The notes beneath the pieces are model-generated. The model searched no databases. It had not been told where the DNA came from and was given only the letters and a program-made list of their open reading frames with translations. Source: Streptomyces sp. SCSIO 30461 (GTDB taxonomy: Bacteria; Actinomycetota; Actinomycetes; Streptomycetales; Streptomycetaceae). Taken from it: a stretch of 64,000 nucleotides of DNA. The stretch spans positions 5,596,001 through 5,660,000 of the forward strand of contig NZ_CP146101.1 in NCBI RefSeq assembly GCF_037023745.1, given 5' to 3'. Position numbers and translations under genes: made by a program. This document shows positions 6,977 to 30,697 of this stretch, piece by piece. The number at the start of each line of letters is the position of its first letter. The first letter of the stretch is position 1.

Positions 6977-9265
6977 ATGGGCCTGAAGCAGGACATCGTG
7001 ATCGTCAATGAGTTCAGCGTGCCACTGCCCGGCGGCAAGGGGTCGCGCGGTGCGACGCCGGGTGACTACGTCACCCGGTACATGGCCCGCGAGCAGGCAA
7101 CCGAGTCGCTGGCTCCGATCCAGCGCCTGCGCACCGACGACTTCATCATGCGCTACATGGCGCGGGAGTCCGCCGTCGAGCGCGCCTGCATCTCGCGGAG
7201 TGCGGCGAAGCATGAGATGCGCCAGGCCCAGGGCGACGGCGGTGTGGCCTTCGGCTACGGCTCAGTCTCACTCTCCGATGAGCAGCTCAAGGCGGCCAGC
7301 AAAGACATCCAGCACTACTTCGACGCTGGGCACACCGTGCTCAAGACGGTGCTGTCCTTCGACGAGGAGTACCTGAGGAAGCACCGCATCGTCGATCAGG
7401 ACTTCCACTGCGAGGCACGCGGCGACTACCGCGGCCACATCGACCAGATGAAGCTGCGCATGGCGATCATGCACGGTCTGGAGCGGATGAGCTCGGGCAC
7501 CGGCGGCTTCGACGACCTGCGCTACGTCGGGGTCATCCAGATCGACACCGAGCACGTGCACTGCCACCTGGCCATGGTCGACGCCGGCCGGGGCCAGGTG
7601 ACGAAGACCGGTACGCAGCGCGGCAAGCTCCTGGACCGGCACAAGTCCAGGCTCCGCCGCGGTATTGACGCCTGGCTCGATGAGAAGCAGGCGGTGGCTC
7701 ATCTCTCCAGCGCCGTCGGCTACGAACGGCGCAACGTCACCACCTTCATCAAGCGGTGGGCTCACGAGCGGATCCGCGCCGAGTCCCTGCCGCAGTTCCT
7801 GCTTGCTTGCCTGCCAGCAGACCGAACATTGTGGCGCGCCGGCTCGAATGACGCCCGCATGCGCAAGGCGAACCAACTGGTGACCGAACTGGTGAAGGAG
7901 CAACTCGACCGTGCCGGGTCCCCGATGCCGGAGGCGATGGAGCGCATCGTCGACTACGCCAACGAGCGCCGCGCGAAAGAGTCTCTGAGCACGGAGGAAT
8001 GGCAGAAGCTGGTCGAGCGGGGACGCACGCAGATCATGGAGCGCGCCGTCAACGGCATCTACCAGATGCTGCGGGCCTTGCCGGAATCGGAGCTGCGGGT
8101 GCGCACGCCGATGCTCGAAGTCATGGGGATGGACTACCAGCAGATGGCGGCGCTCGCCGCGGACCGGCAGGGCGAAGACGAGAATGCTGAGGCCGACTTG
8201 CTCTCCTTCGGCTTCCGGCTGCGCAGCTACGCCTCACGCCTGCAGCATCACCGGGAGAAGGCCGGGGTCTACCGCGACCTCACACGCCAGTGGGAACAGG
8301 CCGAGAACGCCGGCGTCGCCGCCGAGGACTCGCGCCCGCTCTACGACTTCTACCGCTTCGAGGAGAACTACCACCGGCGGCTGATGAGCAAGTACCGGCA
8401 CTTCCTGCCCTTCCTCGGGGACGCCGGCCAGTGGTACGAGCAGCAGCAGGACGTGGCGACCTACGGCCAGCGGCTGCTCTCGCTCATGGCGCTGCGCGCG
8501 GATGCCTCCCTGCAGCAGACGAAAGACCCTGAGATGGCTGAGAACCTGGGCCGGACGATCTACGATCAGCCCGGCGGCCGACTTCTGACCGAAGGCAACC
8601 GCGGCCGGGCGGTGCTGGATGCGCGCATCCGGACGATGAAGCAGTCCTATGACCAGAAGCTGGACGGCCTGCGGGCTGATCTCGCGTCCTGCGGCCTGGT
8701 GCTGCGCGTGGGGCCGAGCGCCGATGACCAAGCGAGTACCGAGACCGACGCGGCCAGCACGGACTTCAAAATCGTCGCCGGTGCCGCGTATGACTTCGAC
8801 GAGGTCAAGGCTCTGGACCTGCACCACCTGGGCTACGACTTCGTCACCGACGTCGCGATCGGGCCGCACGCACACCATACCTTCGCCGAGACGACCAGGA
8901 ACCGCCGGCGGCTGCTGCTGGCGGCGATGGACTACCTGGACCAGTCCGGCCAGGCCGAGGCGATTCCCGATCTGCCGGTGGACGATGTCGCGGCGATGAC
9001 ACGGGTCTCCCAGGAGCTGACACCTCAGCAGACGGACGAGGAATCCAGCACCCTTGTGCTGCGCTCCCGAATCGCGGAGCTGCGCGCCGAGCGCGAGCAG
9101 GCCGAGCGGATGCGGCGATCCAAGGCTTCGTCACTGGACGCCGACCTCGCCGTGCGGGTCCAGGCCCAGGTCGACCAGGCTGTGATCACAGCGGACGCCG
9201 GAATCGAATTCGACTCGCAGCAACCCACTATCCAGACTGACTTTCGGAGCGAACAGAAAGACTAG
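6977..9265 (+). CDS. MobL-like HUH relaxase
   Basis: Nicks the element at its transfer origin and pilots the single strand into the recipient. The HUH metal-binding motif is visible as TEHVHCHLAMVD at about residues 190-201, inside YVGVIQID. The N-terminus contains two copies of an R-Y-M-A-R-E segment (YVTRYMAREQATE near 33, FIMRYMARESAVE near 57), similar to the Y-M-x-R-E signature of MobL relaxases of Gram-positive T4SS elements. Residues about 290-762 are mostly helical with no recognised domain. The ATG is preceded by AGGAAGGAGAG. Which Tyr is catalytic cannot be decided by eye. It works with the TraG/VirD4-type ATPase at 17194. Confidence 0.75.
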   Translation: MGLKQDIVIVNEFSVPLPGGKGSRGATPGDYVTRYMAREQATESLAPIQRLRTDDFIMRYMARESAVERACISRSAAKHEMRQAQGDGGVAFGYGSVSLSDEQLKAASKDIQHYFDAGHTVLKTVLSFDEEYLRKHRIVDQDFHCEARGDYRGHIDQMKLRMAIMHGLERMSSGTGGFDDLRYVGVIQIDTEHVHCHLAMVDAGRGQVTKTGTQRGKLLDRHKSRLRRGIDAWLDEKQAVAHLSSAVGYERRNVTTFIKRWAHERIRAESLPQFLLACLPADRTLWRAGSNDARMRKANQLVTELVKEQLDRAGSPMPEAMERIVDYANERRAKESLSTEEWQKLVERGRTQIMERAVNGIYQMLRALPESELRVRTPMLEVMGMDYQQMAALAADRQGEDENAEADLLSFGFRLRSYASRLQHHREKAGVYRDLTRQWEQAENAGVAAEDSRPLYDFYRFEENYHRRLMSKYRHFLPFLGDAGQWYEQQQDVATYGQRLLSLMALRADASLQQTKDPEMAENLGRTIYDQPGGRLLTEGNRGRAVLDARIRTMKQSYDQKLDGLRADLASCGLVLRVGPSADDQASTETDAASTDFKIVAGAAYDFDEVKALDLHHLGYDFVTDVAIGPHAHHTFAETTRNRRRLLLAAMDYLDQSGQAEAIPDLPVDDVAAMTRVSQELTPQQTDEESSTLVLRSRIAELRAEREQAERMRRSKASSLDADLAVRVQAQVDQAVITADAGIEFDSQQPTIQTDFRSEQKD

Positions 9266-11869: not shown

Positions 11870-11922
11870 TTTAACTGATTTTCCAGTCGAATCATCAATC
11901 CAGTCGAGAGGTCTTGCGCGGC

Positions 11923-14925: not shown

Positions 14926-14975
14926 ACTCATAAATCAGTCGAACCGTGTCGCATCAGCGAAGGGATCGAGCATCA

Positions 14976-17057
14976 ATGGGCATTCTGGGAGCGGCGGTCA
15001 GCCACAAGAAGGAACGGAGGAAGAAGCCCGACGAGCTTCTGGCCTCCGTCGTGAGGGAGACGGCGATCCCGGCGGCGGTCGAGTTGCTGCGGTCGAACAC
15101 GCGGTTCGTCTTTCCCAGCGGTACGGCCTGGGTGATGCTCGTGCTTGCAGCCGACTCGATCGGCGGCTTGAGCAAGCGGCACGGCCGGGACGAGGCGAAG
15201 GGCTCGATCATCGAGCTCATCAGCTCCGACCAGATCCGCACGGTGGCCACGGCGGAGATGCTCGAAGAGGAGGTCTTTGGCATCATCCCCACCGACGAGA
15301 CTCTCGCGCGCATGGAGGAGTACTCGCTGCTCACCGGTGCCACCTACGCCTGGGCCGTCGTGTGGCAGAAGCCCAGCGGCGACCTGCTCATCGACCTGGT
15401 GAACGATGCGACCTTCGCACAGGCGCGCTTTGTCGCTGCAGGTACCACGAGCCTCGAAGAAGCCGTGGGCAAGAAGGCATGGGAGGAGCACAGCGGCCTG
15501 GTCGACGCGGCTGGAGCCACTGGTCCCGTCCCCGCCGTCCTCGGGGAGGACGAGGGGGATGCGATCTTCGACGAGATCCCCGGTGTCGAGGGGGCTGACG
15601 AGGGCTTGGACGACGAGCCGCTCTTCAGCGACGTCATCGACGCGAATGAAGGGGCAAACGCACCCATGTTCGACGAAGGCGCCGCAGGTATCGACGACGC
15701 GGGCACCGTCCCGGTCGAGTCGGAGCCGGACTACGACGGAGGCGAGGTGGCCGGCTACGAGGGCTTCGACGAGACCGACGTCGGCCACGGTATCGAGGGC
15801 GACGGGGGCGACGGCTACCAGGAGGCCGGCGACACTGTGCTGCTGGCCGATCAGGCCCAGGTGCGCGACGTCATCGCCCGCCGGTTCCTCTCCGAGGAAC
15901 TGGGCCTGGACGTCCGGCTCGATGAGTTCAACGCGACCTTCGCCATCGGCGCGCCCGTCGTGCGGATCGCTGTGCCCGAGGGCTCGACGGAGTGGCTCGG
16001 GGACCAGATAGCCCAGCTCAACCGGCAGGCCAACGCAGACCTGATGCAGCTCCGTTCCGCGCACGAGGATGAGCTGCGTGCGCTCTACGTCAACCTCATG
16101 TCGGCGCACACCGAGCAGGTCATCCGCGATGTAGCCACCGATCGGGCGGGCTCCCGGTACAAGCTGCTGAAGGACGCCGCCGAGGCCGAGCACCGGCAAC
16201 GGCAGACAGAGAAGGATGAGAAGATCCGGGCCCGCCGGGCGGAGATCGCCAAGGACTACGAGTCGCAGGCCTCCAAGGTGGCCCAGCAGGCGGCGCTCTC
16301 GGCGGAACTGCAGTACAAGGAGCGCAACCGCTCGAAGATGGAGCGCGAGCAGATCGACTCCGTCGCCGAGATCGAGCGGGACATCGAGGATACCCACGCG
16401 CACAACCAGCAGGAAATCCTGCGGGTCCGGCGTTCGGACGCGACGCTGAAGATGCAGACCGGGCAGACACGGATCTTCGAGGTACTGGCCGAACGGCAGT
16501 CGGAGTACCTGGCGGCCGAGGAAGAGTGCCTGAACCAGTGGAAGTCCGAGATCCAGCGAATCGTCGACGACAACCGCAAGGCCGACATCGCCCAGTCCGA
16601 GGCACTGGCCGAGCACCTGCGGACCACGGACGAGATCGGCGTCCTGCGCCGGGAGCAGCAGGACCTCCTGGAGTCGGTGCGCTCTGAGCACGCCGACCGG
16701 ATCCGCCGGATGGAGGACGAGCTCGAACGCAACCGCAAGGACGCCATCACGCAGATGACGGCTCGGGACGCCGAGTGGCAGCACAACATCGACCTGGAGA
16801 AGGAGAAGACCAACTCCCAGGTGGCGCGGGTCACCGACCTGCTCCAGCAGCTGTCGACGGTCGAGGATTCAGTGGCCAGGCGGTATGAGGTGCGCCTGGC
16901 GGAGATGCAGGCCGACAAGGAGTCCTACGCCAACGAGCTGGCTCGGGCCTCGGAGATGCAGAGCCGATCGAACAAGATCCTCGTCGTCATGATCGTCACG
17001 CTCTCGCTCCTGATGGGCGTGGCCGGCTTCATCGTCGGGGTGGTCTTGACCCGTTGA
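14976..17057 (+). CDS. Large coiled-coil, tail-anchored membrane protein of unknown function
   Basis: 693 aa. The ATG at 14976 gives MGILGAAVSHKK; an in-frame GTG lies 30 bases earlier. Residues 1-185 form a mixed globular domain, about 185-290 is very acidic and low-complexity (many Asp/Glu/Gly), and about 350-660 is almost continuous charged coiled coil. The C-terminus is a single TM helix (ILVVMIVTLSLLMGVAGFIVGVVL) with almost no tail. This shape suggests an extended scaffold or tether fixed to the membrane. It stands directly before the coupling ATPase, so it may be a docking or structural part of the transfer machine. No family recognised. Confidence 0.6.
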   Translation: MGILGAAVSHKKERRKKPDELLASVVRETAIPAAVELLRSNTRFVFPSGTAWVMLVLAADSIGGLSKRHGRDEAKGSIIELISSDQIRTVATAEMLEEEVFGIIPTDETLARMEEYSLLTGATYAWAVVWQKPSGDLLIDLVNDATFAQARFVAAGTTSLEEAVGKKAWEEHSGLVDAAGATGPVPAVLGEDEGDAIFDEIPGVEGADEGLDDEPLFSDVIDANEGANAPMFDEGAAGIDDAGTVPVESEPDYDGGEVAGYEGFDETDVGHGIEGDGGDGYQEAGDTVLLADQAQVRDVIARRFLSEELGLDVRLDEFNATFAIGAPVVRIAVPEGSTEWLGDQIAQLNRQANADLMQLRSAHEDELRALYVNLMSAHTEQVIRDVATDRAGSRYKLLKDAAEAEHRQRQTEKDEKIRARRAEIAKDYESQASKVAQQAALSAELQYKERNRSKMEREQIDSVAEIERDIEDTHAHNQQEILRVRRSDATLKMQTGQTRIFEVLAERQSEYLAAEEECLNQWKSEIQRIVDDNRKADIAQSEALAEHLRTTDEIGVLRREQQDLLESVRSEHADRIRRMEDELERNRKDAITQMTARDAEWQHNIDLEKEKTNSQVARVTDLLQQLSTVEDSVARRYEVRLAEMQADKESYANELARASEMQSRSNKILVVMIVTLSLLMGVAGFIVGVVLTR

Positions 17058-17193: not shown

Positions 17194-20100
17194 ATGGCCA
17201 CGAACAGGCGGCAGGCGGCACGGCCGAAGGCGAGCAGCTGGGACAAGATCTCGGCGCGGACGCCCGGCGAGACGCTGACGAACCGAGACGTCCACGACAA
17301 CCAGCAGCTGGACCGCAGCAAGTTCCTGACCCTGAGGTCGACCAGACCGGGCATCGGCATCGCGGTGATGACCGGCGTGCTGGTGACGATCGTCGCCTGG
17401 GTCTTCTACTCGCTCATCGCCACGGCGGCGCTCTCGGTGGGCGCGTCCGTGAGTTCGGGTGTGTCCGGCAGCGGCACCGGCAAGCCGAGCACGTACTACG
17501 TCCAGGACACCACGACGGGCGCGGGCGGCTCGGTCATGAAGTGCTACCGGCCCCTGACCAAGGACGGCAACCCGGACGTGAAGGCGACGTGCTACCCCAG
17601 CGCTGAGGCTGTTCCGGTCCCCAGCTGGTACACCGCGGCCAAGGACGGCAAGCCCAGCGCCGAGAGGCCGGCTGAGCCCGAGAAGAACGCGACGACGGTC
17701 GGCAAGCAGCTGGCCGACGTCTCGGGGTTCAAGCTTTTCATCACGCTCGGCTCGGGTCTGATGGTCGCCCTCATCATCGGCACGTGGTTCTCGCGGAAGG
17801 TCGCCGCGGCAAACCTGATGAACACCACGAGCGACATCAACCAGTACCAGAACGACCAGCACATCGCTCTGCCGGAAGAGATCCAGCAGAACTACGACTG
17901 GTTCCCCGACGCCGGTGCTCACTCGAGCGTGCAGGTCAGCTCGATGCTCAGCCACATGATGCTCAAGAAGAAGGGTCTGGGCACCGTCGAGGTCGCCCAG
18001 CGCGCCAAGAACGACGTCATCGATGAGGAGGGGAACCTCGTCTACTACGCCGGCGAGGTCATGGACGACGACGAGAGCGATCCGCTGACGCAGACCCTGC
18101 CGATCATCGACGAAGACTTCGGCGACGAGCTGTTCGAGGCATCCGGGCTCCCCCATGACAAGGCCCTGCGGCAGAAGTACGACACGACGCGGATCCCGTA
18201 CAACCCTGACGGCAAGAACCGGGACAAGCTCGGCTTCAGGTCGGACACGTACAAGACCGTCGCTGCCCTGATCAAGGAGGACTGGACGTTCCCCGCGTAC
18301 GAGGTCCAGCGCCCGGCCGGGGCGTACGTGGTCGATACCGCGCCGGTGAACACCATGGTGCTGGCCATCACCCGAGCCGGTAAGGGCCAGACATACATCG
18401 AGCCGATCATCGACATGTGGTCGCGGGAGAAGAAGCCCTCGAACATGGTCATCAACGACCCCAAGGGTGAGTTGTTGGTGAAGAACTACGTGCCCCTGGT
18501 CACACGCGGGTTCGAGCCGGTGCAGTTCAACCTGATCAACTCCATGAAGACCGACATCTACAGCCCCCTTGGGCTGGCGGCCGACGCGGCGCGTGAGGGC
18601 AACTTCACCAAGTGCGCACTGTACGTGGAGAACATCGCCGGGATCTTCTTTCCGCTCGACGGCGGCGAGGACCCGGTCTGGCCCAATGCCGCCAACAACG
18701 CCTTCAAGCGCGCGGCCTACGGACTCATCGACTTCTACCTGGAGGAGGAGCGGGAGCTGCGCAGCGCCGCAGCCGTGCTGAATATGGACCCGGCGCTGCT
18801 GGAGCAGAAGCTCGATGACCTCTGGGGCAAGGTCACGCTCTACAACTGCTACCAGCTCTTCGTGCAGATGAGCTCGAAGAAGATCAAGAACCCTGAGGCC
18901 GAGCTGGAGAAGCGGGTCAAGGCCGGCGAGTTCGAGAACAACGAGGACGCCCTGGCCGAGGAGCAGGAGAAGGCGGCGGCCCAGGCCTTCATGTGGGAGG
19001 GCAAAGCCGATCAGGACATGCTCAGCCTGTACTTCAACGCGAGCGAGGAGCTGCCCCGCAACAACATGCGCACGCTGGTGGGCAACGCCCACAACGCGCT
19101 GCGCTCGATGGCCGGCGCGGAGAAGATGCTGGCCTCGGTGTACGGCATCGCGATCACCGCCATGTCGTTCTTCACCGACCCCACGATCTCGACGCTGACC
19201 TCGGGCAAGCCCTCGCAGAACACCGACCTGGCCGGCCTGAGCTTCCCGCGTCGCCTCGGCGTGCGCTTCGCGCCGAACTACGTCAAGCGCGACCACCTCG
19301 TCGGTCAGCAGGCCGTGTGGTCGGCCTACGCAGACCCGATGTTCACCGAGAACCTGGGTGAGGACTTCGAGCACGAGGAGATCGTCGGCCGCGAGGGTTG
19401 GGCCCGGTACAACTTCAAGGGCAAGTTCCCTGGCGACGATGCCTGGCTCAAGCTGGAGCTGGTCAACCCGCAGACGAAGATGCTGGTGCGGACCTTCTAC
19501 TTCAGCTTCACGAAGAACTACCAGGTCTCGCTCAACGGCCGGCACTACGTGGTCGAGCCGGTGACGGGCAAGAAGATCGTGAAGAACGGCGTGATGCGTG
19601 AGCTGAAGCCGGTACGTGAGGGCGGCACCCGGGACGGGAAGATTCTTTCCTTCCAGCCCGGGGACACGCTCTACCCGGACACGCGACTCGACTTCTCCGG
19701 CGGCGGCAACCCGGAGAAGGTCTCGTATCAGGCACGGGCGATCACGCAGACGCTGTCGCGCTACTCGGAGTCCCCCAAGGCGCTGTTCCTGGTGACTCCG
19801 CCTCACCTGATGAAGTACGCGAAGCTGATCCTGATTCTGGTCAAGCAGCTGTTCGACGTGAGCGCCGACCAGGCGTACATGACGAAGTCGAACCAGAAGC
19901 CGCTCTACCGCACGCGGTTCATGCTCGACGAGCTCGGCAACCTGCAGTCGGAGGGCAAGGGCATCGACGGCTTCGAGACGATGCTCTCCATCGGCCTGGG
20001 CCAGGAGCAGCAGTTCACGCTCATCCTGCAGACCCTGCAGCAGTTGCGCGACGTCTACGGCGAGAGCGTCGACAAGATCGTGCAGGGCAATGCTGCCCCG

Positions 20101-22320
20101 CTTCGCTCTCTCATCGCCGTCCCTAATGGGTGGAAGCGCATGGGCGACATCAAGGTCGGCGACGAGGTGCTCACGCCGTTCGGCACGGTCACCACGGTGA
20201 CCGGGGTCTATCCGCGAGGTGTGCGCCCGGTCTACCGGCTCACCCTGCGTGACGGCTCTTCGGCCGAGTCGTGCAACGAGCATCTGTGGCCGATTGAGCG
20301 CTGGAAGTCCAGCGTGAAGTACCTGGGAGGGAAGACCGAGGACGGCACGAGGGCGTACATCGGCGGCAATGATGGCAAGACCGCCGAGCGTGTCACCGAG
20401 GTCGTCACCACCGATGAGCTGAAGTCGCGCGTCGACAAGGGTCGTCAGGTCGACCTGCCTCGAATCATGCCGGTGGCTTACCCGAAGGCCGACCTTCCGA
20501 TCGACCCTTACGTTCTGGGTGCTCTCATCGGGGACGGGCATATCGGCAAGGCTGGTTTCTCCTTGCTCTCGTGCAACGACGAGGAGATCGTGGAGGAGAT
20601 TCGTCGTCGTGACCACACGGTCTCGGAGTACAAGGTCAAGGACGGACACTGCTCGACGTACAGCGTCCTTGGAGTCAGCAAGCACCTGCGCGAGCTCGGC
20701 ATCGCGGGTAAGCGCTCGTGGGAGAAGTCGATCCCGGCCGCTTACCTGTTCGGTTCGGTGCAGCAGCGGACCGACCTGCTGCGCGGTCTCATGGACACCG
20801 ACGGCACGATCAGCCGCAAGGGCGAGATGGAGTTCACCTCCGCGAGCCGCGAGCTGGCTGAGGACGTCCAGAAGCTCGTGCGCTCCTTGGGCGGTCGTGT
20901 GGCGATCAACGTCAAGACGAACGTCAAGTACACCTCGCCGAACCAGCCGACGCCGAAGGAGGCCAGGGACGCCTACCGCGTGCAAAACATCCGGCTGCCC
21001 GAGATCAACCCCTTCCTGCTCTCACGCAAGGCGGAGCGCTGGCGCGACCGTGCACGCGGATTCAATCGTGTCGTCAGCGTCGAGTACGTGCGAGACGAGG
21101 AGGTGCAGTGCGTCCGCGTCGCCGACGAGCGGCATCTCTACCTCACCGACGACTTCATCCCGACGCACAACACCTCGAACATCGTCTTCCTCAAGTCCAC
21201 GGACGATTCGATGATCGAGACGCTGGAGAAGATGAGCGGCAAGACGCACCGGTCGTACCGGGACAGCAAGCAGATCAGCCAGGATCTCGACAAGGTCATC
21301 GGCGGCAAGACCGAGGGCCGGGTCTCCTACACGATGAACACCAAGGAGGAGCCGCTGATCAGCTACAACGACATGGCGTTCCTCTCGCCGCGCAATTCGA
21401 TCGTCTTCCGGGCCGGCGACGCGCCGATATGGAACCGCAACCAGACGATCCTGCCGATGTCCTACCGGCTGCTGGGGAACACGATCAAGCACCCGGGGCA
21501 CACGTACTCACTGCAGACGATCCCGACCCTGTCCAGCGCCATGGACTTCGACGTCCGGATGAACCAGCCGGACTTCGTGAAGATGCTGGACAAGCGCATG
21601 CGGCAGGCGGTCAAGGCCGCGGACGCGAAGGCGCAGTACAAGGAGATCTACGGCTACCAGGAGGTCGACATCGAGCGCCTGGACCCGGATGTCTACGCCG
21701 ACGAGGTCATGGAGGTCATCACGACGATGACCACGGTCGACGAGGGCCAGGACCCAGGCGCCCCGGTGGTCGTCGACCCCGACGAGTACGAGGGGATGAG
21801 CATGTTCGACGAGGACCAGTTCATCGAGAACGTCGAGGTCGGGGTTGCGATCGCCGAGAGTCAGGCGGTCAGCGCCGAGCGGCAGCGTCTGCTCTACGCC
21901 GAGGGGACGATCAGCAAGGAGATGCTGGTCAACCCCGACGGCTCGGCGAAGGTCAAGAGCCTGGACATCGAGATCGGTGAGGCCTACAAGTCGGCGCAGA
22001 CCGAGTTGGAACAGGATCGCGAGCACTTCTCTGTCGGCGGCGACGGCGAGCTGCGCAGCGCCGATGGGTCCCAGACGTACATCAGCCAGATCCGCTCGGA
22101 CGCGTACGCCCATGCGGCCCGCCGGATCAACGGCCATGTGAACGACGAGGACTCCCGGGTGTTCGCGGAGGAGGATGTCACCGAGGAGGACCTGAAGTCG
22201 CTGGCGACGGTGAAGGTCCACTCGGCCTTCTACCAGTACCTGGCCTCGCTGCCGAGCTGGGAGGTGCTGGCCGACGGCCGGTTCGACCGGGCCATGGCCA
22301 TCGAGATGAACTCGAAGTAG
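17194..22320 (+). CDS. TraG/VirD4-type coupling ATPase interrupted by an intein
   Basis: Links the relaxase-DNA complex to the transfer channel and drives it with ATP. Two N-terminal TM helices (about 50-82 and 180-202) anchor it. Walker A-like AITRAGKGQT lies near 392, Walker B RFMLDELGNL near 909, followed by LILQTLQQLRDVYGE, the usual TraG/VirD4 succession. The intein sits after IVQGN and before TSNIVFLKSTDD, the conserved segment where TraG proteins have the sensor-like asparagine. The precursor is 1708 aa and the spliced protein about 1348 aa, long for the family, with an extended acidic C-terminal part after about 1500. It follows the coiled-coil membrane protein with a 136-base gap and ends at a terminator. 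Confidence 0.85.
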   Translation: MATNRRQAARPKASSWDKISARTPGETLTNRDVHDNQQLDRSKFLTLRSTRPGIGIAVMTGVLVTIVAWVFYSLIATAALSVGASVSSGVSGSGTGKPSTYYVQDTTTGAGGSVMKCYRPLTKDGNPDVKATCYPSAEAVPVPSWYTAAKDGKPSAERPAEPEKNATTVGKQLADVSGFKLFITLGSGLMVALIIGTWFSRKVAAANLMNTTSDINQYQNDQHIALPEEIQQNYDWFPDAGAHSSVQVSSMLSHMMLKKKGLGTVEVAQRAKNDVIDEEGNLVYYAGEVMDDDESDPLTQTLPIIDEDFGDELFEASGLPHDKALRQKYDTTRIPYNPDGKNRDKLGFRSDTYKTVAALIKEDWTFPAYEVQRPAGAYVVDTAPVNTMVLAITRAGKGQTYIEPIIDMWSREKKPSNMVINDPKGELLVKNYVPLVTRGFEPVQFNLINSMKTDIYSPLGLAADAAREGNFTKCALYVENIAGIFFPLDGGEDPVWPNAANNAFKRAAYGLIDFYLEEERELRSAAAVLNMDPALLEQKLDDLWGKVTLYNCYQLFVQMSSKKIKNPEAELEKRVKAGEFENNEDALAEEQEKAAAQAFMWEGKADQDMLSLYFNASEELPRNNMRTLVGNAHNALRSMAGAEKMLASVYGIAITAMSFFTDPTISTLTSGKPSQNTDLAGLSFPRRLGVRFAPNYVKRDHLVGQQAVWSAYADPMFTENLGEDFEHEEIVGREGWARYNFKGKFPGDDAWLKLELVNPQTKMLVRTFYFSFTKNYQVSLNGRHYVVEPVTGKKIVKNGVMRELKPVREGGTRDGKILSFQPGDTLYPDTRLDFSGGGNPEKVSYQARAITQTLSRYSESPKALFLVTPPHLMKYAKLILILVKQLFDVSADQAYMTKSNQKPLYRTRFMLDELGNLQSEGKGIDGFETMLSIGLGQEQQFTLILQTLQQLRDVYGESVDKIVQGNAAPLRSLIAVPNGWKRMGDIKVGDEVLTPFGTVTTVTGVYPRGVRPVYRLTLRDGSSAESCNEHLWPIERWKSSVKYLGGKTEDGTRAYIGGNDGKTAERVTEVVTTDELKSRVDKGRQVDLPRIMPVAYPKADLPIDPYVLGALIGDGHIGKAGFSLLSCNDEEIVEEIRRRDHTVSEYKVKDGHCSTYSVLGVSKHLRELGIAGKRSWEKSIPAAYLFGSVQQRTDLLRGLMDTDGTISRKGEMEFTSASRELAEDVQKLVRSLGGRVAINVKTNVKYTSPNQPTPKEARDAYRVQNIRLPEINPFLLSRKAERWRDRARGFNRVVSVEYVRDEEVQCVRVADERHLYLTDDFIPTHNTSNIVFLKSTDDSMIETLEKMSGKTHRSYRDSKQISQDLDKVIGGKTEGRVSYTMNTKEEPLISYNDMAFLSPRNSIVFRAGDAPIWNRNQTILPMSYRLLGNTIKHPGHTYSLQTIPTLSSAMDFDVRMNQPDFVKMLDKRMRQAVKAADAKAQYKEIYGYQEVDIERLDPDVYADEVMEVITTMTTVDEGQDPGAPVVVDPDEYEGMSMFDEDQFIENVEVGVAIAESQAVSAERQRLLYAEGTISKEMLVNPDGSAKVKSLDIEIGEAYKSAQTELEQDREHFSVGGDGELRSADGSQTYISQIRSDAYAHAARRINGHVNDEDSRVFAEEDVTEEDLKSLATVKVHSAFYQYLASLPSWEVLADGRFDRAMAIEMNSK
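20092..21171 (+). other. Intein (360 aa) with LAGLIDADG endonuclease, class 3-like, in the coupling ATPase
   Basis: Begins with Ala (AAPLRSLIAVPNGWKRMGD) after IVQGN and ends IPTHN before Thr. It lacks a Cys/Ser at position 1 and has HLW in block B (about residue 65) and Cys in block F (VQCVRVADERHLYL), so it fits the Trp-Cys-Thr class 3 pattern. Endonuclease motifs are DPYVLGALIGDG (about 139) and LLRGLMDTDGT (about 230). The endonuclease part resembles the other intein of this window, so the two may be related, yet they sit in unrelated exteins. Confidence 0.88.
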
Positions 22321-22353
22321 CCGACGGCCGCTTGGGGGCCATACAAGGATCAC

Positions 22354-22409
22354 GGCCAGTGCCGAGGCCATCTCTCGACTAAGAGAGACAGCCTCAGCAC
22401 TGGCCTTTC
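22354..22409 (+). terminator. Long hairpin terminator after the coupling ATPase gene
   Basis: Imperfect stem GGCCAGTGC-c-GAGGC (22354-22368) with GCCTC-a-GCACTGGCC (22391-22405), plus an inner TCTC/GAGA pairing, followed by TTTCT. It isolates the RNA polymerase gene from the transfer genes. Confidence 0.75.
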
Positions 22410-22428
22410 TAATAGCCTCTCACTCTCT

Positions 22429-22448
22429 TTCGATAGGCGAGGTAGGCT
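22429..22448 (+). promoter_or_regulatory. Candidate promoter of the single-chain RNA polymerase gene
   Basis: CTCTTTCGATAGGCGAGG followed by TAGGCT at 22443-22448, in an AT-rich island directly after the terminator. The CTCTTTCGATA word is shared with the region before the gene at 2266. The start codon is 39 bases downstream with AGGAGG in front of it. No clear -35 box is seen. Confidence 0.45.
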
Positions 22449-22486
22449 CTATGCAACCCGGAGCATCCACAGGAGGCTGATTAATC

Positions 22487-25400
22487 ATGAAGAAGGCGCA
22501 CGGACTGCGCGGGTACTTCTACGAATACGTCTACTACAAGGCAGTCGAGCAGGCCCGGGAACAGGCCGGACAGGTCGTTCCGATCTCTCAGGCCAAGGAG
22601 ATCCGCGCCCGCATCGACGAGATCCTCGGCCAGCGGGGCACTGCGCTGGCCGACCCGCGGCTGGGCGTCACGGACTGCCTCTCCGCCATCGACCAGGCGT
22701 TCGCGGAGAAGGTGTCCGACTACGAGCCGCAGTTCGGTGACCATTCCCCGCAGAACGAGCGCTACCAGCAATCGCAGCGGGAGTTCACCCGCGTCACCGG
22801 TGTCGGTGCCCGGGTAGACCCGAAGTCGGCCCGGCTGCCGATCAGCCCCTATGACCCCGACTGGTCCGAACGCGCGACCGTGAAGCGCGCCGGGACCGCG
22901 CTGGTGTACCTGCCGGACGAGACGATCGCACGCGTGGCCGGCGGCGAGGTGGAGACCCTGGCCGACCCGCGGCGCGGAAACATGGTGCTCTGGCGCATCG
23001 ACAACGAGGGCAAGCCGTTTGAGGCAGGCCGCGCGATGACGAACGACGACGCCGCTGGACTCACTGCGCTGATGGACAAGATGAGCCGGCAGGAGTACGA
23101 CCAGGTGCGCGAGTGGGTCATCGATGGCGGCCGGGACCCGCAGACGAACCGTGTCGACCGCAACCGCTTCATGTCCCAGCGCGCCGTGGAGCGCTCGGCA
23201 GCACTGCTCGAAGAGCTGAAGGCCCAGGGCGTGTCCTACGAGGTGATGCGCGACCGCGAGCCAGGGCAGATCAAGGCGAAGATCGCCAGGACCGGCATGG
23301 AGATTCGCCTGACCGACGCACGTCAGGAGGGGTACGCCGGAGCTCGGATCTACGACAACGGCACCGTGCTGCGCTACTCGACGAATTACCGGGTTCCCGG
23401 CGGCGTGGCGGTCTACTCCCCCTCGCCGGCGGAGGCCGTTCAGTTGCTGCGCTTCGCGCAGGGCCATCGCGTCGAGCGCACGGATCTGCCGGGGCACGCC
23501 GTCGGCGAGACCGGCACGACGCACCAGGAGCGCGGCCGTGGCCGCACGGTGGTGGATGTACCCGACAGCTATCACGTTGACCGCGAGACGATGTTCGTGG
23601 TCGGCGACTACGTGGCGCCCGGTGAGTCCGGTCCCCGGCCCGGCTCGAAGGTGATGCTGCGCCGGGACGCGAAGAACCGCTCACTGCCGGCCTTCTTCGT
23701 CGACGCTGAGCCGGCCGAGGCCTATGCGAAGGCCGCCGTCGAGAGTGCTCGGGCGAACCTACAGGCAGCCCTTGGCGTCGAGGATCTCATTGCTCGTGCC
23801 GAGGCGGAGCTGGAGCGAACCGGCGGACATTTGGATGCGATCGAACCGCCGGAGTATTCGGCTGACTCTGAGATCGCTGCGATCCAGCGCTCGTACTGGG
23901 ACGTACTCACCGGCGCGCACAGCGATCTGCTGCGCCCGGGTGCGACCGAAGAGATGTACCAGGAACGGCTGGAGAAGATCGGCGAGCTGCAGGCCGACGA
24001 GGCACCAGATATGGGCAACCTCGTCTACAGCGGCACCGTCGTCGAGAAGGTCCGGCAGCACGCCGAGGACGTTCCCTTCGAACTCATCGGGACCTGGGAG
24101 GCGGAGCCCCACGACGTCGACGGCGAGTGGGTCGATCAGCGCTTCAACCCGGAGCGGGTGGCGCGGTACATGACCAGCCCCACCGGGCAGTGGTCGAATC
24201 TCGACAACCTTGCCTCGGCGCTTCGTCGTTGTGGGATCCCTCCTGTCGAGATGATGGGCTCAACCTTCCAGACGACCCGGTTCAAGGACCGGCTCGTCCG
24301 CTTCGACGCCGAGCGCTGCGTGCCGATCGCCGATCATGAATCTGCGTTCATTCGGCGCATCGGGATCACCGTGCGTGAGAGCATCGAGCGCAACGCGGCG
24401 ACGGTCTCCGAGATCCTGGTCGACGAGCAGGGCGTCATCCGCTGGAGTGGCGAGAAACTGCGCCGTGACGGCAAGGGGACTCCGATCTCGGGTGAGATCG
24501 GCCAGGTCTTCGATGTCGGCGAGTACGGCGAGATCACCACCGCCTTCGCCAGCGGGCAGAACGCCCTTATCGTGCCGGGCTACGAAGCCACGATCACGGC
24601 CCAGGCTCCGGGCGAGGCGCCGACCTCGGTCGAGGAACGCACGCGCCTGCGCGGCTACGAGCAGCTTATGCACGAGCGCATCCAGTACCAGATCGCCGGC
24701 GACCTCATCGCCGGGCGCAGCGAGACCGGCGAGCCCTCCTCGCTCAACGCGGTCTACTCGCAGCTGTACGGCACGAAGCACCCAGTCGACTTCATCGAGC
24801 GCGCCACCACGTACCGGCTCGACGAGTCCACCGGCGAGATCAAGGCGCACTTGGACCAATGGACGGCCGCGATCCTGCGGACCGAGGCGCGCCGTGTGCG
24901 CTACCCCAACGAGATCAAGGCCGGCTCGACGGTCTACGCCGAGTACCGGGCCCAGCGCGACCGAACTGATCCGGCTGACGACAACCGCTTCGACGCCTGG
25001 CGGCTCACCGGCGGGCGGAACATGACGGTGCTCACCGGCAAGGACCGGAACAACGTCGCTGCGCCCAGCGGCTACTTCGACCCGGTGATGACCGGAGGCG
25101 CGACCAACCAGGGCATCGTGCGGTACCTGACCACTCAGGCCCAGGTCGACGCCGATGGCCGGATCGTGCCAGGCGACGAAAGCGTGGCCGGACAGCGTGC
25201 GCCGCTCATGGCTCTCCCCGAGCTCGAGACGCTGCAGTACGACCCTTTCGACCGCCAGCAGATGACGGCCTCGACGATCATGCAGTCTTCCGAGGTCACC
25301 CAGCCCACCGGTACGGCTCTGATGACCTTCGGCGGCTGGACAGCTGATGACCCGATCGTGGTGTCGAAGGAGTTCGCGGAGCGCCACCGCATCCGCGGGG

Positions 25401-28033
25401 CCGGTGGTCAGGAGCGCGATCTCGTCGTGGGCGACAAGATCTCGGATCTGCACGGCAACAAGGGTGTGATCTCGCTGATCGTCGACCGGGGCATGCTTCT
25501 GCAGGACGCACGGGAGCAGGATGTCGTCGAAGAGGTCAGCTGGTTCCGGGCCAACCCGGGCCTGGACGTGGTGATGAGCCCGTTCAGCCTGATCTCCCGG
25601 CGCAACGCGGGCTCGGCGCGCGAGCTGATGAGCGGGAATGTCTCCGACCTGCGCTCCCCTAACGGAGAACTGCGGCCGAGTGCCCTGGGTGAGATGCGCT
25701 TCGTGGTCACCCATATGGCCGTCGACGAGAAGACGAAGATCTACGACGACGAGCAGGTGCGTGCCGGTAAGGGCCGTAAGGCATCCTCGCAGCTGGCCTG
25801 GGCGCTGCAGTCTCAGAACTGCCCGTCGATCATGCGCGAGTTCTACGGCCACAACAGCGGGGCCGAGTCGAACCTGCGCGAGTGCCTGCTGGTGACCGGC
25901 ATGGACATGGACGCTGACGGCACACTGCGGGTGATCGGCCAGGCCGAGGACCTCGACGAGCGCCCCGAGCGCCGGTTCATCCCGATGCCCGAGCTGATGC
26001 GCACCCAGCCGCGCAAGGAGGGTCAGCTCCCGGGGCTCAACGCCACGGCGATGCGCAAATCCTTCGGCGATCTCATCGGCGACCGCGGCGGCGACATGGA
26101 GATCCCGTTTCCGCTCACGTATCCGACCGGTGAGCAGACCGAGATGGTGAGTGCGAGCTCGTGGAAGCTGCCGGTGATGTCCTCGCATCTGCGCAGTGGT
26201 CAGGAGTTCGAGGACGGGTCCTCCGTCACTCACGACCACACCCGCAGCTATCAGGACGTCTTCGTCGCGGCCTGCCGCTACCGCTACATGGCCGAGCAGC
26301 TGACCGGCCAGCGTCTGCCTGCGGAGAAGCGTGCCGAGGTGCGTCGCGACATGAGCGAGTCGGTCTCGCGCGCTCAGCGCGCCTTCGAGGCGATCACGAC
26401 CGAGGTGCAGAACCGGGTGCTGACAGGCAAGAACAACATCTTCAAGACCGGGCTGATGGCCTCGCGGCTGACCGACTCGGCGACGATGGTGTGGACCTCA
26501 GATCCACGGCTGGATGTCGACCAGGTTGCGCTCAGCTCGGTCAAGGCCGAGCAGCTGGGGCTGGCCGAGGGCGAACACGCGCTGGTGTGGCGTGACCCGG
26601 TGCTCCGTGACGCCGGCGTGCGCTACATGCGGGTCGCGATCGACGACCGGCTCACCGGTGCCGCGATCAACCCGGTGATGGACGCTTGCTTCGACGGCGA
26701 CTTCGACGGCGACGCCGTCGCCGTGGTGAAGTTGCACAGCGAAGCCGCGAAGGCCGAGGCCCTGGCGAAGCTCTCGGTGCCGGCCAACCTGTTGGACACC
26801 GGAGTGGTCAAGGGCGACGGCTCGCACCCGCTCGCCATGCAGGTCTCGCTGGACACCCAGGTCGCGCTCTCCAAGGACGCCGGACTGGCCGATGAGCTGG
26901 AGAGTTCGCGGAACGAGGCGAACCGGCTCCGGCTGCAGGCACTCACCGGCGCACAGGGGCCGGGGGACATCAAGCTCGCCCAGCAGGTCGTGACGGAGGA
27001 GCTGAGCGGGCTGTACCGCCAGGCGCAGCGTGGCGAGTTCGGTGCGGCACTGACGTTCTCGGATCGCGAGGCGCACCTGCAGAGCGTGCGCGAGGTCTGT
27101 GTCGAGACCGGCGCCAAGGGGAGCGAGAAGAAGCTCACCGACTACGCCCGGAACCTGGGCGATGCGCAGGGCACGCCCGGCATCACGCAAGCCGACCAGG
27201 AAGCCTCCATGTTCGCCACGGCGATCAAGGCCCACGGCACCGGCCTGGGCGGCTCGTTCAGCCAGCGCGCCGTACGCGCGCTGCGCGGCGAGGACCTCAA
27301 GGCCGTCCTGGAGGTCACCTACCCGGTGACCCAGTCGATCCTGCAGGCCAAGCACGACGCCGCCGAGGCCCGGCACAAGTACGCGATGCTCCAGGGCCCC
27401 GGCCGCGATCTCTGGAGGGGCCGCAGCATCGAGCGCGTCGGCCCGGGCCAGTGGCGCACGGCATTCCTCGACGGTGAGCCCGTCCAGGCTACGGCCGAGG
27501 AGTGGGAGAAGCAGTTCATTGAGTTCTACGAGTCCAAGGAGGGCTTCGCAGTCACGGTCAACCCGGACTATGTGGCCCGCGTGGCAAAGGCGCTGGAGGA
27601 CCCGAGAACCGGGCTCATCCGCAACCTCGAAGAGGACCCGTCGCTGCGGGGCACCGTGATGGACCGGATGGCCTATGGTGGCGCGTTCGCCGACCTGGTC
27701 GAGGCAGCCAAGAACCGCGAGAGTGTCTACGACGGCGAGAAGAACGAGCAGTTCGCGGCCTTGGGGACTCGGAAGGCCCGAGCGGAGATGTCCCGGCAGC
27801 TCGAACAGCTGGGCTCCGGCGAGACGCGCAGTCTGGACAGCGCTGCGATTGCCGTCGATGACTCGGTGGTCAAGCCCGACGTGATCTCTCAGGACGCGGA
27901 GGCCTCGCGCACCCGCGGCTCGCATCGCCGCTCTGCGCATGCCGTGCGTGTGGGCGCCTCGCGCCCGGTCTACACGCCGAGTATCGAGATCGATCAGCCA
28001 CAGGGCAACGACGACTACGGGGTGGGGTACTGA
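22487..28033 (+). CDS. Single-chain RNA polymerase: beta-like and beta-prime-like catalytic cores fused in one protein
   Basis: Predicted DNA-dependent RNA polymerase of the multisubunit (two double-psi beta-barrel) type. The beta-like core shows YDPFDRQQMTASTIMQSSEV (about 918-937), then GDKISDLHGNKG (982-993), whose K984 and K992 are 8 residues apart like the catalytic pair of E. coli beta, and VMSPFSLISRRNAG (about 1029). The beta-prime-like core shows LTGKNNIFKTGLMASR (about 1311), HALVWRDPVLRDAGV and the metal-binding DFDGD at 1405-1409. GTGLGGSFSQRAVRAL (about 1585) could be the trigger-loop region. Both cores lie in one 1848-aa chain, much shorter than separate actinobacterial beta plus beta-prime. 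The first 850 residues are hardly recognisable. No alpha, omega or sigma homologue is seen nearby. The ATG follows AGGAGG. Related logic: SPbeta YonO, yeast killer-plasmid polymerases. Confidence 0.88.
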   Translation: MKKAHGLRGYFYEYVYYKAVEQAREQAGQVVPISQAKEIRARIDEILGQRGTALADPRLGVTDCLSAIDQAFAEKVSDYEPQFGDHSPQNERYQQSQREFTRVTGVGARVDPKSARLPISPYDPDWSERATVKRAGTALVYLPDETIARVAGGEVETLADPRRGNMVLWRIDNEGKPFEAGRAMTNDDAAGLTALMDKMSRQEYDQVREWVIDGGRDPQTNRVDRNRFMSQRAVERSAALLEELKAQGVSYEVMRDREPGQIKAKIARTGMEIRLTDARQEGYAGARIYDNGTVLRYSTNYRVPGGVAVYSPSPAEAVQLLRFAQGHRVERTDLPGHAVGETGTTHQERGRGRTVVDVPDSYHVDRETMFVVGDYVAPGESGPRPGSKVMLRRDAKNRSLPAFFVDAEPAEAYAKAAVESARANLQAALGVEDLIARAEAELERTGGHLDAIEPPEYSADSEIAAIQRSYWDVLTGAHSDLLRPGATEEMYQERLEKIGELQADEAPDMGNLVYSGTVVEKVRQHAEDVPFELIGTWEAEPHDVDGEWVDQRFNPERVARYMTSPTGQWSNLDNLASALRRCGIPPVEMMGSTFQTTRFKDRLVRFDAERCVPIADHESAFIRRIGITVRESIERNAATVSEILVDEQGVIRWSGEKLRRDGKGTPISGEIGQVFDVGEYGEITTAFASGQNALIVPGYEATITAQAPGEAPTSVEERTRLRGYEQLMHERIQYQIAGDLIAGRSETGEPSSLNAVYSQLYGTKHPVDFIERATTYRLDESTGEIKAHLDQWTAAILRTEARRVRYPNEIKAGSTVYAEYRAQRDRTDPADDNRFDAWRLTGGRNMTVLTGKDRNNVAAPSGYFDPVMTGGATNQGIVRYLTTQAQVDADGRIVPGDESVAGQRAPLMALPELETLQYDPFDRQQMTASTIMQSSEVTQPTGTALMTFGGWTADDPIVVSKEFAERHRIRGAGGQERDLVVGDKISDLHGNKGVISLIVDRGMLLQDAREQDVVEEVSWFRANPGLDVVMSPFSLISRRNAGSARELMSGNVSDLRSPNGELRPSALGEMRFVVTHMAVDEKTKIYDDEQVRAGKGRKASSQLAWALQSQNCPSIMREFYGHNSGAESNLRECLLVTGMDMDADGTLRVIGQAEDLDERPERRFIPMPELMRTQPRKEGQLPGLNATAMRKSFGDLIGDRGGDMEIPFPLTYPTGEQTEMVSASSWKLPVMSSHLRSGQEFEDGSSVTHDHTRSYQDVFVAACRYRYMAEQLTGQRLPAEKRAEVRRDMSESVSRAQRAFEAITTEVQNRVLTGKNNIFKTGLMASRLTDSATMVWTSDPRLDVDQVALSSVKAEQLGLAEGEHALVWRDPVLRDAGVRYMRVAIDDRLTGAAINPVMDACFDGDFDGDAVAVVKLHSEAAKAEALAKLSVPANLLDTGVVKGDGSHPLAMQVSLDTQVALSKDAGLADELESSRNEANRLRLQALTGAQGPGDIKLAQQVVTEELSGLYRQAQRGEFGAALTFSDREAHLQSVREVCVETGAKGSEKKLTDYARNLGDAQGTPGITQADQEASMFATAIKAHGTGLGGSFSQRAVRALRGEDLKAVLEVTYPVTQSILQAKHDAAEARHKYAMLQGPGRDLWRGRSIERVGPGQWRTAFLDGEPVQATAEEWEKQFIEFYESKEGFAVTVNPDYVARVAKALEDPRTGLIRNLEEDPSLRGTVMDRMAYGGAFADLVEAAKNRESVYDGEKNEQFAALGTRKARAEMSRQLEQLGSGETRSLDSAAIAVDDSVVKPDVISQDAEASRTRGSHRRSAHAVRVGASRPVYTPSIEIDQPQGNDDYGVGY

Positions 28034-28034
28034 G

Positions 28035-29774
28035 GTGGCACAGCGCATGGAACTGGGAACGGGACCCGCGGGCCGCCCGCGCGCGACCAAGGTGCTTCCG
28101 GTGGACGACGATCGGCAGCAGGCCGACGAACCGCAGAGCAGCGCTTACGCCTACTGGAACTCACGCTCGGACGAGCCGATCGACGCCGAGGTGATCGACG
28201 AGCCCGGACCGGAGGACACAGACGGTTCGCGCGCCTGGCGCGAGCGGCTCCGGGACCGCGCGCGCGGGTTCTTCGGCGCGAAGACCCAGGAGCGGATGGC
28301 CGACCGCGAGCGCGTGCACTGGATCGACGTCGACCGGGCCGAGGACGAGACCGAGGGCCTGGACCAGCGCGAGCAGCTGCTCAAGCTCCGGGCGGAGACG
28401 CGGCTGGCCGGCGAGAAGTACATGGCCTCACTGCGGGACTCGAGGCTGCTGGTGCCCGGCTTCAACGACGAGGAACGGACGCAGGAGCTCGGCGTCATGC
28501 ACCACGTCTACATGCAGATGATGATGCAGTCGTGTCTCAAGCCGCTCTCGCGCGGAGTGAATGCCAACTCGATCATCCAGGCCGTCGGCATGGTGATGAC
28601 GATGCGGATGCTCGCCCCGGACTTCAAGAAGGAGATGGACAGCTACCTCCAGCCCCTCAAGGACAAGATCCAGGAGCGCATCGACACCAGGACCCGCGGC
28701 ATGGTCGCCTCTGCCGAGAGCGGCATCGCGTGCCGGCAGAGGATCTTCAAGGACGTGCCGAGCGACGCCCGGCGCGAGCGCCTCGTCGGCAGCACGGATC
28801 CGCGTGATCACCTGACGAAGAAGTGGCGCAAGCGCTTCGACGCCATGCAGCACCGTGAGCGCGGCCACCGGGAGATGTTCACCCCGGATTCGGCAGCCAT
28901 GACCGAGGTCGCGCTCATGGAGAACGTCTTCTGGAAGATGCGTGAGCCAGGCGCAGACGCCGGCCTGATCCGCGACAGCTACCGGGCGATGCGCAAGCGG
29001 CTGCACGAGCAGATGAGTGAAGACGGCCTGGAGCGCCAGGAGGTCGTCCAGCGCGCGCGAATGATCATCGGCGAGCGGATGGAGTACGAGCCCGAGCTGC
29101 GCACGATGTTCAACGGCGTGGCCCACGGCCGGATCGTCAAGGCCCCTGCGCACGAGGAGCGGATCGCGGGCTCGGACAGAGTCCGCACGGTCTGGAGCGG
29201 GGAGTTCGACGACCAGCTGGGCCAGCGTCTGCCTGAGGACGGGATGTTCACGCTGCGCCGGCCCATGGACGCGGACGCCCACCAGGTCCAGCTCGCCGAG
29301 ACAATGAAGACCTCGATGCTCGACGCGCTAGGCCGCGGCGATCAGGAGGGCTACGGGGGCAACATGCTCGGCTACCTGGTCGGCTTCGCAGCACAGAAGC
29401 AGGGCTTGGACACCAGCGGGCTGCCCGACATGCTCCAGCACCGCCTGGACCAGTCCGAGGTGATGATCGCGAGCATGGACATCGACGGCCTGCCGCCCGA
29501 GGAGCAGCAGCGGGTCTATTCCAACGCCTACGTCGACGCGATGGAGGCAGTGAACGAGAAGTACCCGGATCTCGAGGCCGAGCTGAAGCAGAGCCTCGGA
29601 GAGAACTGGCAGCAGACGCTGCAGACGGCGGTCAACGACCCAGGTGCCTTCTTCGAGGAGCAGCGGCTCAAGCCGCGGTCGCGCCCTACCGGCCCGTCGT
29701 CCGAGCAGGAGGCCGGCCCGCAGAACGAGAGCCCGAACGCTGAGGCCGATGCCGAGGACTACCAGCCCGCCTGA
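28035..29774 (+). CDS. Unknown 579-aa protein coupled to the RNA polymerase gene
   Basis: The GTG at 28035 begins 2 bases after the polymerase stop, so the two are almost certainly co-translated; an ATG 12 bases later is the alternative. Residues 1-95 are charged and likely disordered; about 100-540 is predominantly helical with many Arg/Glu/Met (RQRIFKDVPSDARRERL, QVQLAETMKTSMLDALG), and the end is acidic. There is no TM helix, ATPase motif or zinc site. No family recognised. Position makes it the best candidate for a dedicated partner of the polymerase (specificity, assembly or packaging factor), which is inference only. Confidence 0.6.
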   Translation: MAQRMELGTGPAGRPRATKVLPVDDDRQQADEPQSSAYAYWNSRSDEPIDAEVIDEPGPEDTDGSRAWRERLRDRARGFFGAKTQERMADRERVHWIDVDRAEDETEGLDQREQLLKLRAETRLAGEKYMASLRDSRLLVPGFNDEERTQELGVMHHVYMQMMMQSCLKPLSRGVNANSIIQAVGMVMTMRMLAPDFKKEMDSYLQPLKDKIQERIDTRTRGMVASAESGIACRQRIFKDVPSDARRERLVGSTDPRDHLTKKWRKRFDAMQHRERGHREMFTPDSAAMTEVALMENVFWKMREPGADAGLIRDSYRAMRKRLHEQMSEDGLERQEVVQRARMIIGERMEYEPELRTMFNGVAHGRIVKAPAHEERIAGSDRVRTVWSGEFDDQLGQRLPEDGMFTLRRPMDADAHQVQLAETMKTSMLDALGRGDQEGYGGNMLGYLVGFAAQKQGLDTSGLPDMLQHRLDQSEVMIASMDIDGLPPEEQQRVYSNAYVDAMEAVNEKYPDLEAELKQSLGENWQQTLQTAVNDPGAFFEEQRLKPRSRPTGPSSEQEAGPQNESPNAEADAEDYQPA

Positions 29775-29815
29775 GGGCGATCCGAGAACACAAACAAGGA
29801 GCGCGGGGAAGGGCT

Positions 29816-30181: not shown

Positions 30182-30252
30182 CCGAATGGACCACGATAGC
30201 GTTGCGAACGGCACTCGATAAGCCATCCCCTCCTTTTAGACTCGCGACTTTC

Positions 30253-30313: not shown

Positions 30314-30697
30314 ATGGAGACGACGACGAATCCGCGTGTCAGTAAGCGCGAGTTCATCTCTCGGGTCGCGACTCGCAGCGAGTTGCCGGTCCGGGTGGTG
30401 AACAAGGTGTACGAGTCGCTGCTCGGTGAACTCACGGGCGCGGTCAGCTGCGGGGAGACGGTCGTGCTCACGAGCTTCGGCCGCTTCTACCGACAGGACC
30501 ACAAGGGCCACAAGGTCCGCTTCGGCAAGAGCAACGTCGACGACTACGTGGTGCTGAAGTTCTCCGCGTCGAGCAGCTTCAACCGCCGGCTCGGCGGCGA
30601 GGAGGACGAGATCTCACCGGAGACCTACGGGATGATCGAGGATGCCGACGAGTTCGAGAACGCCATTGAGGATCGTGAGCTACAGGCCGCATCGTAG
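30314..30697 (+). CDS. HU/IHF-family DNA-bending protein
   Basis: Small basic dimeric DNA-binding protein. The N-terminal helices (SKREFISRVATRSELPVRVV) and the VVLTSFGRFYRQDHKG segment fit the HU signature (the usual GFGTF appears as SFGRF), followed by the DNA-contacting beta arm and the FSASSSFNRRL end that corresponds to FKPGKxLK. The 127 aa exceed HU by an acidic C-terminal tail (about 95-127). It is probably used for element DNA architecture, for example at the transfer or replication origin or at promoters of the adjacent polymerase unit. It has its own promoter-like region and ends at a strong terminator. Confidence 0.8.
   Translation: METTTNPRVSKREFISRVATRSELPVRVVNKVYESLLGELTGAVSCGETVVLTSFGRFYRQDHKGHKVRFGKSNVDDYVVLKFSASSSFNRRLGGEEDEISPETYGMIEDADEFENAIEDRELQAAS

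Follow-up and report, generated by a model that had tools for sequence, protein, structure and literature searches.

A table within PMC7281927 gives single-chain RNA polymerases with two barrels for phages and for fungal plasmids. YonO of the Bacillus phage SPbeta carries both barrels on one chain of about 100 kDa, synthesizes RNA on DNA and transcribes the SPbeta late genes, according to part of PMC5467207; as published in that part, it has no homology to the trigger loop or to anything else beyond the barrels. The gp64 and gp96 RNA polymerases of the Thermus phage P23-45 are phage enzymes too, and the study of that phage groups the single-chain enzymes of phages and plasmids in a clade separate from the cellular enzymes and their fused derivatives. 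K2ORF6p of the yeast killer plasmids is beta fused to part of beta-prime on an element that is not a phage, with the C-terminal regions of beta-prime on a separate protein, K2ORF7p, and the element is a cytoplasmic one of eukaryotes (part of PMC6211774). The killer-plasmid enzymes possess the SBHM insert of the flap, which YonO lacks; in cellular enzymes this flap is an insert that binds sigma or TFIIB (PMC7824862). The NCgl1702 class of Corynebacterium glutamicum, compared here by its description, is likewise a mobile-element double-barrel polymerase without the SBHM flap insert.

The protein described here belongs to a conjugation-type gene block of Streptomyces sp. SCSIO 30461, and its sequence leads us to classify it as a single-chain double-barrel RNA polymerase, both barrels being predicted. 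The window, that is the whole stretch of 64,000 nucleotides analysed, covers 5596001-5660000 of a single-contig chromosome of 8.05 Mb, on which rpoB and rpoC of the host are found outside the window, near 7.37 Mb. The polymerase gene starts with ATG and runs without internal stops, and the nearest named relatives of its product, among the matches listed, are from Streptomyces. Its parts are as follows.

22487..28033, + strand: putative single-chain double-barrel RNA polymerase, 1848 aa (P0001); open reading frame, Pfam and profile homology
22487..24406, + strand: N-terminal ~640 aa in which Pfam finds no domain; actinobacterial relatives conserve it, under purifying selection
25058..25159, + strand: residues 858-891, weak alignment to the GRMCPIETPEGPNIGLI region of beta; second hhalign path, E 0.0028, probability 11%
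25412..25843, + strand: residues 976-1119, beta-like second barrel half and C-terminal part; hhalign E about 5e-15, PF00562
25430..25465, + strand: GDKISDLHGNKG, with both lysines of the active site; 277 of 285 relatives have the strict pattern
26168..26872, + strand: residues 1228-1462, beta-prime-like barrel region; hhalign E 1.6e-26, PF00623
26699..26713, + strand: DFDGD, the Mg-binding aspartates; D.DGD in 285 and DFDGD in 281 of 285 relatives
27107..27136, + strand: TGAKGSEKKL, aligned to SGARGS of beta-prime just before the bridge helix; sub-threshold, E 0.36
27215..27286, + strand: ATAIKAHGTGLGGSFSQRAV.., candidate bridge helix; sub-threshold alignment
27323..27358, + strand: PVTQSILQAKHD, candidate trigger loop, its P.TQ..L...H spaced as in cellular enzymes; hhalign no better than the shuffled control

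A preliminary description of this DNA had proposed a polymerase with beta-like and beta-prime-like parts on one polypeptide, on the strength of a lysine motif and a DFDGD motif in that order. The lysine motif lies at residues 982-993, with lysines 984 and 992 spaced by 8, and DFDGD at residues 1405-1409, so the beta-like part is indeed N-terminal to the beta-prime-like part. The description had also claimed further core motifs around both, and had called for a search with Rpb1- and Rpb2-type RNA polymerase profiles. In that search PF00562 (Rpb2_6) scores 30.3 bits (E 3e-7, above the cut-off of 23.4), and PF00623 (Rpb1_2) matches at E 1.4e-4 when run against the polymerase alone (22.6 bits, below the cut-off of 25.3); in a search of the whole genome the PF00623 domain reaches 26.5 bits, above the same cut-off. 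Against the chains of the PDB the single sequence gives only E 0.022 at best. A family profile of 68 rows (A3) finds RpoB chains with E down to 2.3e-14 and Rpb1/beta-prime chains from E 2.8e-12, among the best 60 of 193 hits. Profile-profile comparison by hhalign, with 14 RpoC and 17 RpoB sequences making one template each, gives alignments of 224 columns for beta-prime and 131 for beta. The beta-prime path spans PP.LRP, the GK..FR stretch, R.P.L, DFDGD and the NNLL region, while the beta path of A3 against the PDB runs from the equivalent of GYNYEDAI via GDK..HGNK and SR.N.G...E to that of GEMEVWAL. The resemblance thus extends beyond the motifs and is not a product of chance, and the one-polypeptide proposal is supported by profile homology. 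The N-terminal 850 residues had been called unlike known beta; this is true at the level of Pfam, with a weak similarity to beta setting in at about residue 858.

Following DFDGD, where the bridge helix and trigger loop would be expected, all matches are sub-threshold. In the PDB comparison a beta-prime chain (6wmr) is second among five chains, at E 0.36, and hhalign on residues 1445-1680 alone scores 18.9, a value that the best of 40 column-shuffled controls matches. Across 16 rows, as far away as Lactococcus, TQ..L..KH keeps its T, Q, L, K and H without exception, and they are spaced as in the cellular P.TQ..[LM]...H that stands in the host RpoC. The bridge helix and trigger loop are thus candidates proposed at the level of motifs. 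We considered TGAKGS as the bridge helix and rejected it; with the bridge helix at what we take to be its position in cellular beta-prime, the alignment puts TGAKGS ahead of it.

How does this architecture differ from that of the cellular enzymes, the source of its significant sequence matches? Apart from being one chain, it is shorter in two places. From GW..DD to GDK the median spacing in 273 family members is 32 residues (range 22-783, the large values being taken as pattern artefacts). Of 17 beta sequences, 16 have 140-292 residues here, and one narrow group makes up 13 of these, at 292. The short spacing indicates that the family lacks the flap insert, a feature it shares with YonO and in which it differs from the killer-plasmid enzymes (PMC7824862). 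Only about 110 residues separate the end of the beta-like part (~1119) from LPV..SHLRSG (1228), the PP.LRP region, whereas the host RpoC has 320 residues ahead of PP.LRP. The clamp helices of beta-prime bind sigma region 2, and in so short a stretch they would have to be absent or tiny. The flap and most of the N-terminal part of beta-prime may have been lost or may never have been present; with both missing, the usual docking of the host sigma is not expected. As read from the sequence, these gaps would fit transcription without the host alpha, omega and sigma subunits.

The comparison with YonO drawn in the preliminary description needs to be divided. YonO stands as a precedent for a single chain, but the published YonO lacks homology to cellular enzymes beyond the barrels, and the present family has such homology, in the 224 beta-prime and 131 beta columns and in its retention of P.TQ..L...H. 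The significant paths include the C-terminal region of beta and the PP.LRP region of beta-prime outside the barrels, the trigger-loop motif being sub-threshold. The family differs further in its length (1848 aa here) and in its context of conjugation rather than of a phage.

The catalytic residues are conserved in most of the relatives examined. Protein searches scored 7,999, 7,993 and 7,999 candidates and gave 388, 64 and 534 proteins at E <= 1e-3, of which 120, 64 and 120 were listed, in sets that may overlap, and the tail of the 64-protein set is ordinary RNA polymerase. We examined 285 relatives (P0001-P0165 and P0188-P0307), comprising 282 of the listed proteins and three translated from plasmids, with 22 borderline or cellular proteins (P0166-P0187) excluded. 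D.DGD is present in every one, DFDGD in 281, strict GDK....HGNK in 277 (279 for the loose lysine motif) and TQ.....KH in 269. The three strict motifs GDK....HGNK, DFDGD and TQ.....KH occur together in 257 relatives, in constant order; 28 lack at least one of them, and in P0197-P0201 and P0305 the lysine pattern is missing even in its loose form. A fork-region pattern matched 153 of the 285 and was not used. Purifying selection acts along the whole chain, with dN/dS against six relatives of 0.14-0.35 in the N-terminus, 0.14-0.34 in the core and 0.22-0.42 in the C-terminus. That the protein is a catalytically dead scaffold would agree with the minority of relatives lacking one or more strict motifs, but D.DGD in 285 of 285, the loose lysine motif in 279 and the purifying selection leave us giving this idea hardly any credence. 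Certain relatives already bear the label 'DNA-directed RNA polymerase' in UniRef or JGI. P0267 and P0282 represent 614 and 571 member sequences, far above the other listed relatives, so certain versions of the polymerase have been sampled very often.

The gene is sporadic in its distribution, as expected of a mobile gene: one of 394 genomes of the class has it (its own), and five of 199 genomes of the genus, its own included. Most sampled host genomes thus lack the element, as they might if the protein were an RNA-directed or conflict/defence polymerase, QDE-1-like or regulatory, that did not transcribe its own element; the superfamily does include RNA-dependent members, according to part of PMC7281927. 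Nevertheless, the significant matches are to cellular DNA-dependent enzymes and the polymerase is linked to transfer genes, which makes such a role very improbable.

The surroundings of the gene are those of a conjugation system. From left to right the block contains the tail-type lysozyme, small proteins, the MobL relaxase, a Clp-like ATPase with an intein, a 703-aa protein, the coupling protein with an intein, the polymerase, a 579-aa protein, a small protein and an HU-like protein, the principal members being these.

24..2069, + strand: phage-tail-type lysozyme, E 2.6e-37, for which a VirB1-like role may be supposed
6977..9265, + strand: MobL relaxase, PF18555, E 7e-115
11914..14832, + strand: ClpA/ClpB-like AAA+ ATPase with intein, 5' end of the gene uncertain; domain and neighbourhood matches
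14946..17057, + strand: 703-aa protein, a conserved neighbour; tblastn in the loci of relatives
17194..22320, + strand: VirD4/CD1115-like coupling protein with intein; T4SS-DNA_transf, E 5e-13
28035..29774, + strand: 579-aa protein directly 3' of the polymerase, GTG at 28035 (the listed reading frame starts at 27939)
30314..30697, + strand: HU-like DNA-binding protein, E 1.3e-7

The relaxase and coupling ATPase named in the preliminary description are thus both found, by MobL and T4SS-DNA_transf respectively; the CD1115 family model also matches the coupling protein (E 5e-39, 134 bits, below the model cut-off of 250). To the left of the window, at chromosome 5589250-5590635, is a phage-type integrase, so that relaxase, coupling protein and integrase, features of an integrative conjugative element, are all present. 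The model for VirB4-type ATPases, PF12846, matches at two sites of the genome and at none within the element, where a diverged copy may be missed; with none recognized there, self-transfer is itself something that we infer. As a substitute motor one may consider the Clp-like AAA+ protein, whose ATPase gene is conserved beside that of the coupling protein. Its relative in NZ_CP109461 has 1431 aa, compared with the open frame from 11914 here, so that the uncertain 5' part of the gene falls in 9946-11914. The inteins of this ATPase and of the coupling protein contain LAGLIDADG domains, and that of the coupling protein has relatives in other plasmid genes, e.g. IncF traD and helicases. The coupling protein is matched as one unbroken piece only in L015, L016 and L027, and nearly so in L019; such matches being rare, most relatives are without this intein at that site. 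Elsewhere in the window, 10136-11744 has an odd composition and no match in the relative G517, 40229-43153 (- strand) encodes a UvrD/Rep-like helicase found in six fetched loci (93% in a Streptomyces plasmid, with weaker similarity to HelD), and 43991-46423 (- strand) a second ClpA/ClpV-like AAA+ ATPase. Rfam families were absent from the window.

How constant is this arrangement? Exact peptide patterns located 38 genome loci, of which 31 are full relatives (L009-L039) and seven are short and weak (L040-L046, excluded); the fetched loci extend at most 10 kb on each side. By tblastn the Clp-like, 703-aa, coupling and 579-aa proteins lie beside the polymerase in all 31 actinobacterial loci, with coverage of the coupling-protein extein of at least 0.89 in each (L038 and L039 have a shorter reading frame), and the HU-like gene in 28. 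The common core with one relative (G478) is about 19 kb, and with another (G517) it is in pieces across about 68 kb. The gene order is kept in named Streptomyces, Gordonia and Rhodococcus plasmids, with extra genes in the latter two, and the polymerase occurs also on Staphylococcus and Lactococcus plasmids; in two Staphylococcus plasmids examined the coupling protein is followed by two genes and then the polymerase. The polymerase is present in 13 of 72,556 plasmid records, and 12 of these also encode the coupling protein. The coupling protein matches 27 plasmid records at E <= 1e-20, 14 of them only in or near the intein. A Fructilactobacillus plasmid has a weak coupling-protein match and no polymerase gene, and the Lactococcus plasmid pJM4A has the polymerase gene and no coupling-protein match. 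The pJM4A polymerase (L006, 8959-16107), of 2382 aa, extends much further at its N-terminus.

The context had been said to differ from that of phage-borne examples, and this is borne out: the polymerase belongs to a conjugation-type gene block. A phage origin was considered and rejected, since a search of 50,697 phage records at E <= 1 matched just six, none of them beyond the beta motif region. In IMG/VR, P0001 gave no match in a search that finds close relatives only, and alignment A1 gave one locus, L047. This also encodes the coupling-protein extein, in pieces, and is thus probably a conjugative element within a viral collection.

The position of the gene, between that of the coupling protein and further conserved genes of the block, also bears on a role during transfer, in which a primase or early polymerase would make RNA on the single strand arriving in the recipient, to serve second-strand synthesis or early expression there. 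Part of PMC5512222 reports that primases are delivered to the recipient by conjugative elements, and a virion RNA polymerase by N4-like phages; as a guess, the 640 extra N-terminal residues could be a transfer or template module. Yet a Pfam search finds no primase domain in the polymerase, a DUF5906/D5-type gene about 4 kb right of the window may already serve priming, and that same part of PMC5512222 names Toprim, Primpol and N4-type polymerases rather than double-barrel ones. We regard this role as unlikely.

We think it probable, instead, that the gene encodes a working single-chain DNA-dependent RNA polymerase of the double-psi-barrel type that would transcribe genes of the element. The beta-like part, with its two lysines, would provide the first half of the active site, and the beta-prime-like part the second, in which bridge helix and trigger loop probably come after DFDGD. 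Being in a conjugation block, the enzyme would most likely transcribe element genes from element-specific start sites, without the host alpha, omega and sigma. What the sequences show is homology, conserved catalytic residues, purifying selection and linkage to the coupling protein; RNA synthesis, with its template, its promoters and its time in the life cycle, we infer. Two sequence elements precede the gene.

22354..22405, + strand: strong hairpin between the coupling-protein and polymerase genes, possible terminator, z -5.2
22431..22436, + strand: CGATAG upstream of the polymerase gene, a recurrent 6-mer and candidate promoter or operator element

The gap between the coupling-protein and polymerase genes is 166 bp, and the 579-aa follower can start one base past the polymerase stop. 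With this hairpin-bearing gap on one side and the adjacent follower on the other, the polymerase may share a promoter of its own with the follower. Within 21000-33000 there are no sigma70-like sites (1.1 expected), and a terminator scan gave four sites (4.3 expected), the hairpin at 22354-22405 not being among them. In 77 upstream regions from 15 elements CGATAG ranks first among the 6-mers, occurring 21 times against 3.2 expected in regions that are related by descent; its reverse complement occurs seven times in the same regions. In sense orientation CGATAG precedes the 703-aa gene in 9 of 13 upstream regions, the polymerase gene in 7 of 15 and the HU-like gene in 5 of 13, and is absent upstream of the other three genes tested (0/7, 0/15 and 0/14). 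Several matches coincide with the ribosome-binding site. In the window CTTTCGATA occurs four times with one mismatch allowed, compared with 3.75 by chance, and TTCGATAGNNT twice in the whole genome, compared with three control hits. CGATAG may be a promoter for the element polymerase, an operator for an element regulator or a product of descent, and we treat it as a lead only. After the HU-like gene, 30698-30829 contains a 20-bp hairpin with AAAGAGAACCCCC-type arms, perhaps a two-way terminator that closes the block.

The polymerase might go further and form a self-contained, sigma-independent transcription system of conjugation, using CGATAG-like promoters and perhaps acting on DNA newly delivered to the recipient, but this seems to us distinctly unlikely; so too, within it, does the idea that the enzyme is the conjugative counterpart of the virion RNA polymerases of phages.

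Among the papers listed by searches of the open-licence literature we recognized no study of the polymerase family. Among 14 control genomes C. glutamicum alone is positive for MobL, so that a relaxase of the same type is present there, and the polymerase family is therefore probably the NCgl1702 class or close to it. The less specific coupling-protein model NF045973 matches six of the 14, C. glutamicum included, and C. glutamicum is not among the 38 genome loci found by exact peptide patterns. The novelty is thus weaker than the preliminary description had supposed.

If active, these proteins would constitute a widespread group of RNA polymerases, with hundreds of clustered proteins, tied to one type of coupling protein; the named members among the matches listed include Actinomycetota and Staphylococcus. 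Conjugative elements, besides phages, could then bring their own transcription machine, which bears on expression in a new host. Moreover, an active one-chain enzyme that lacks the flap and yet is cellular-like outside the barrels would help to order the steps of RNA polymerase evolution.
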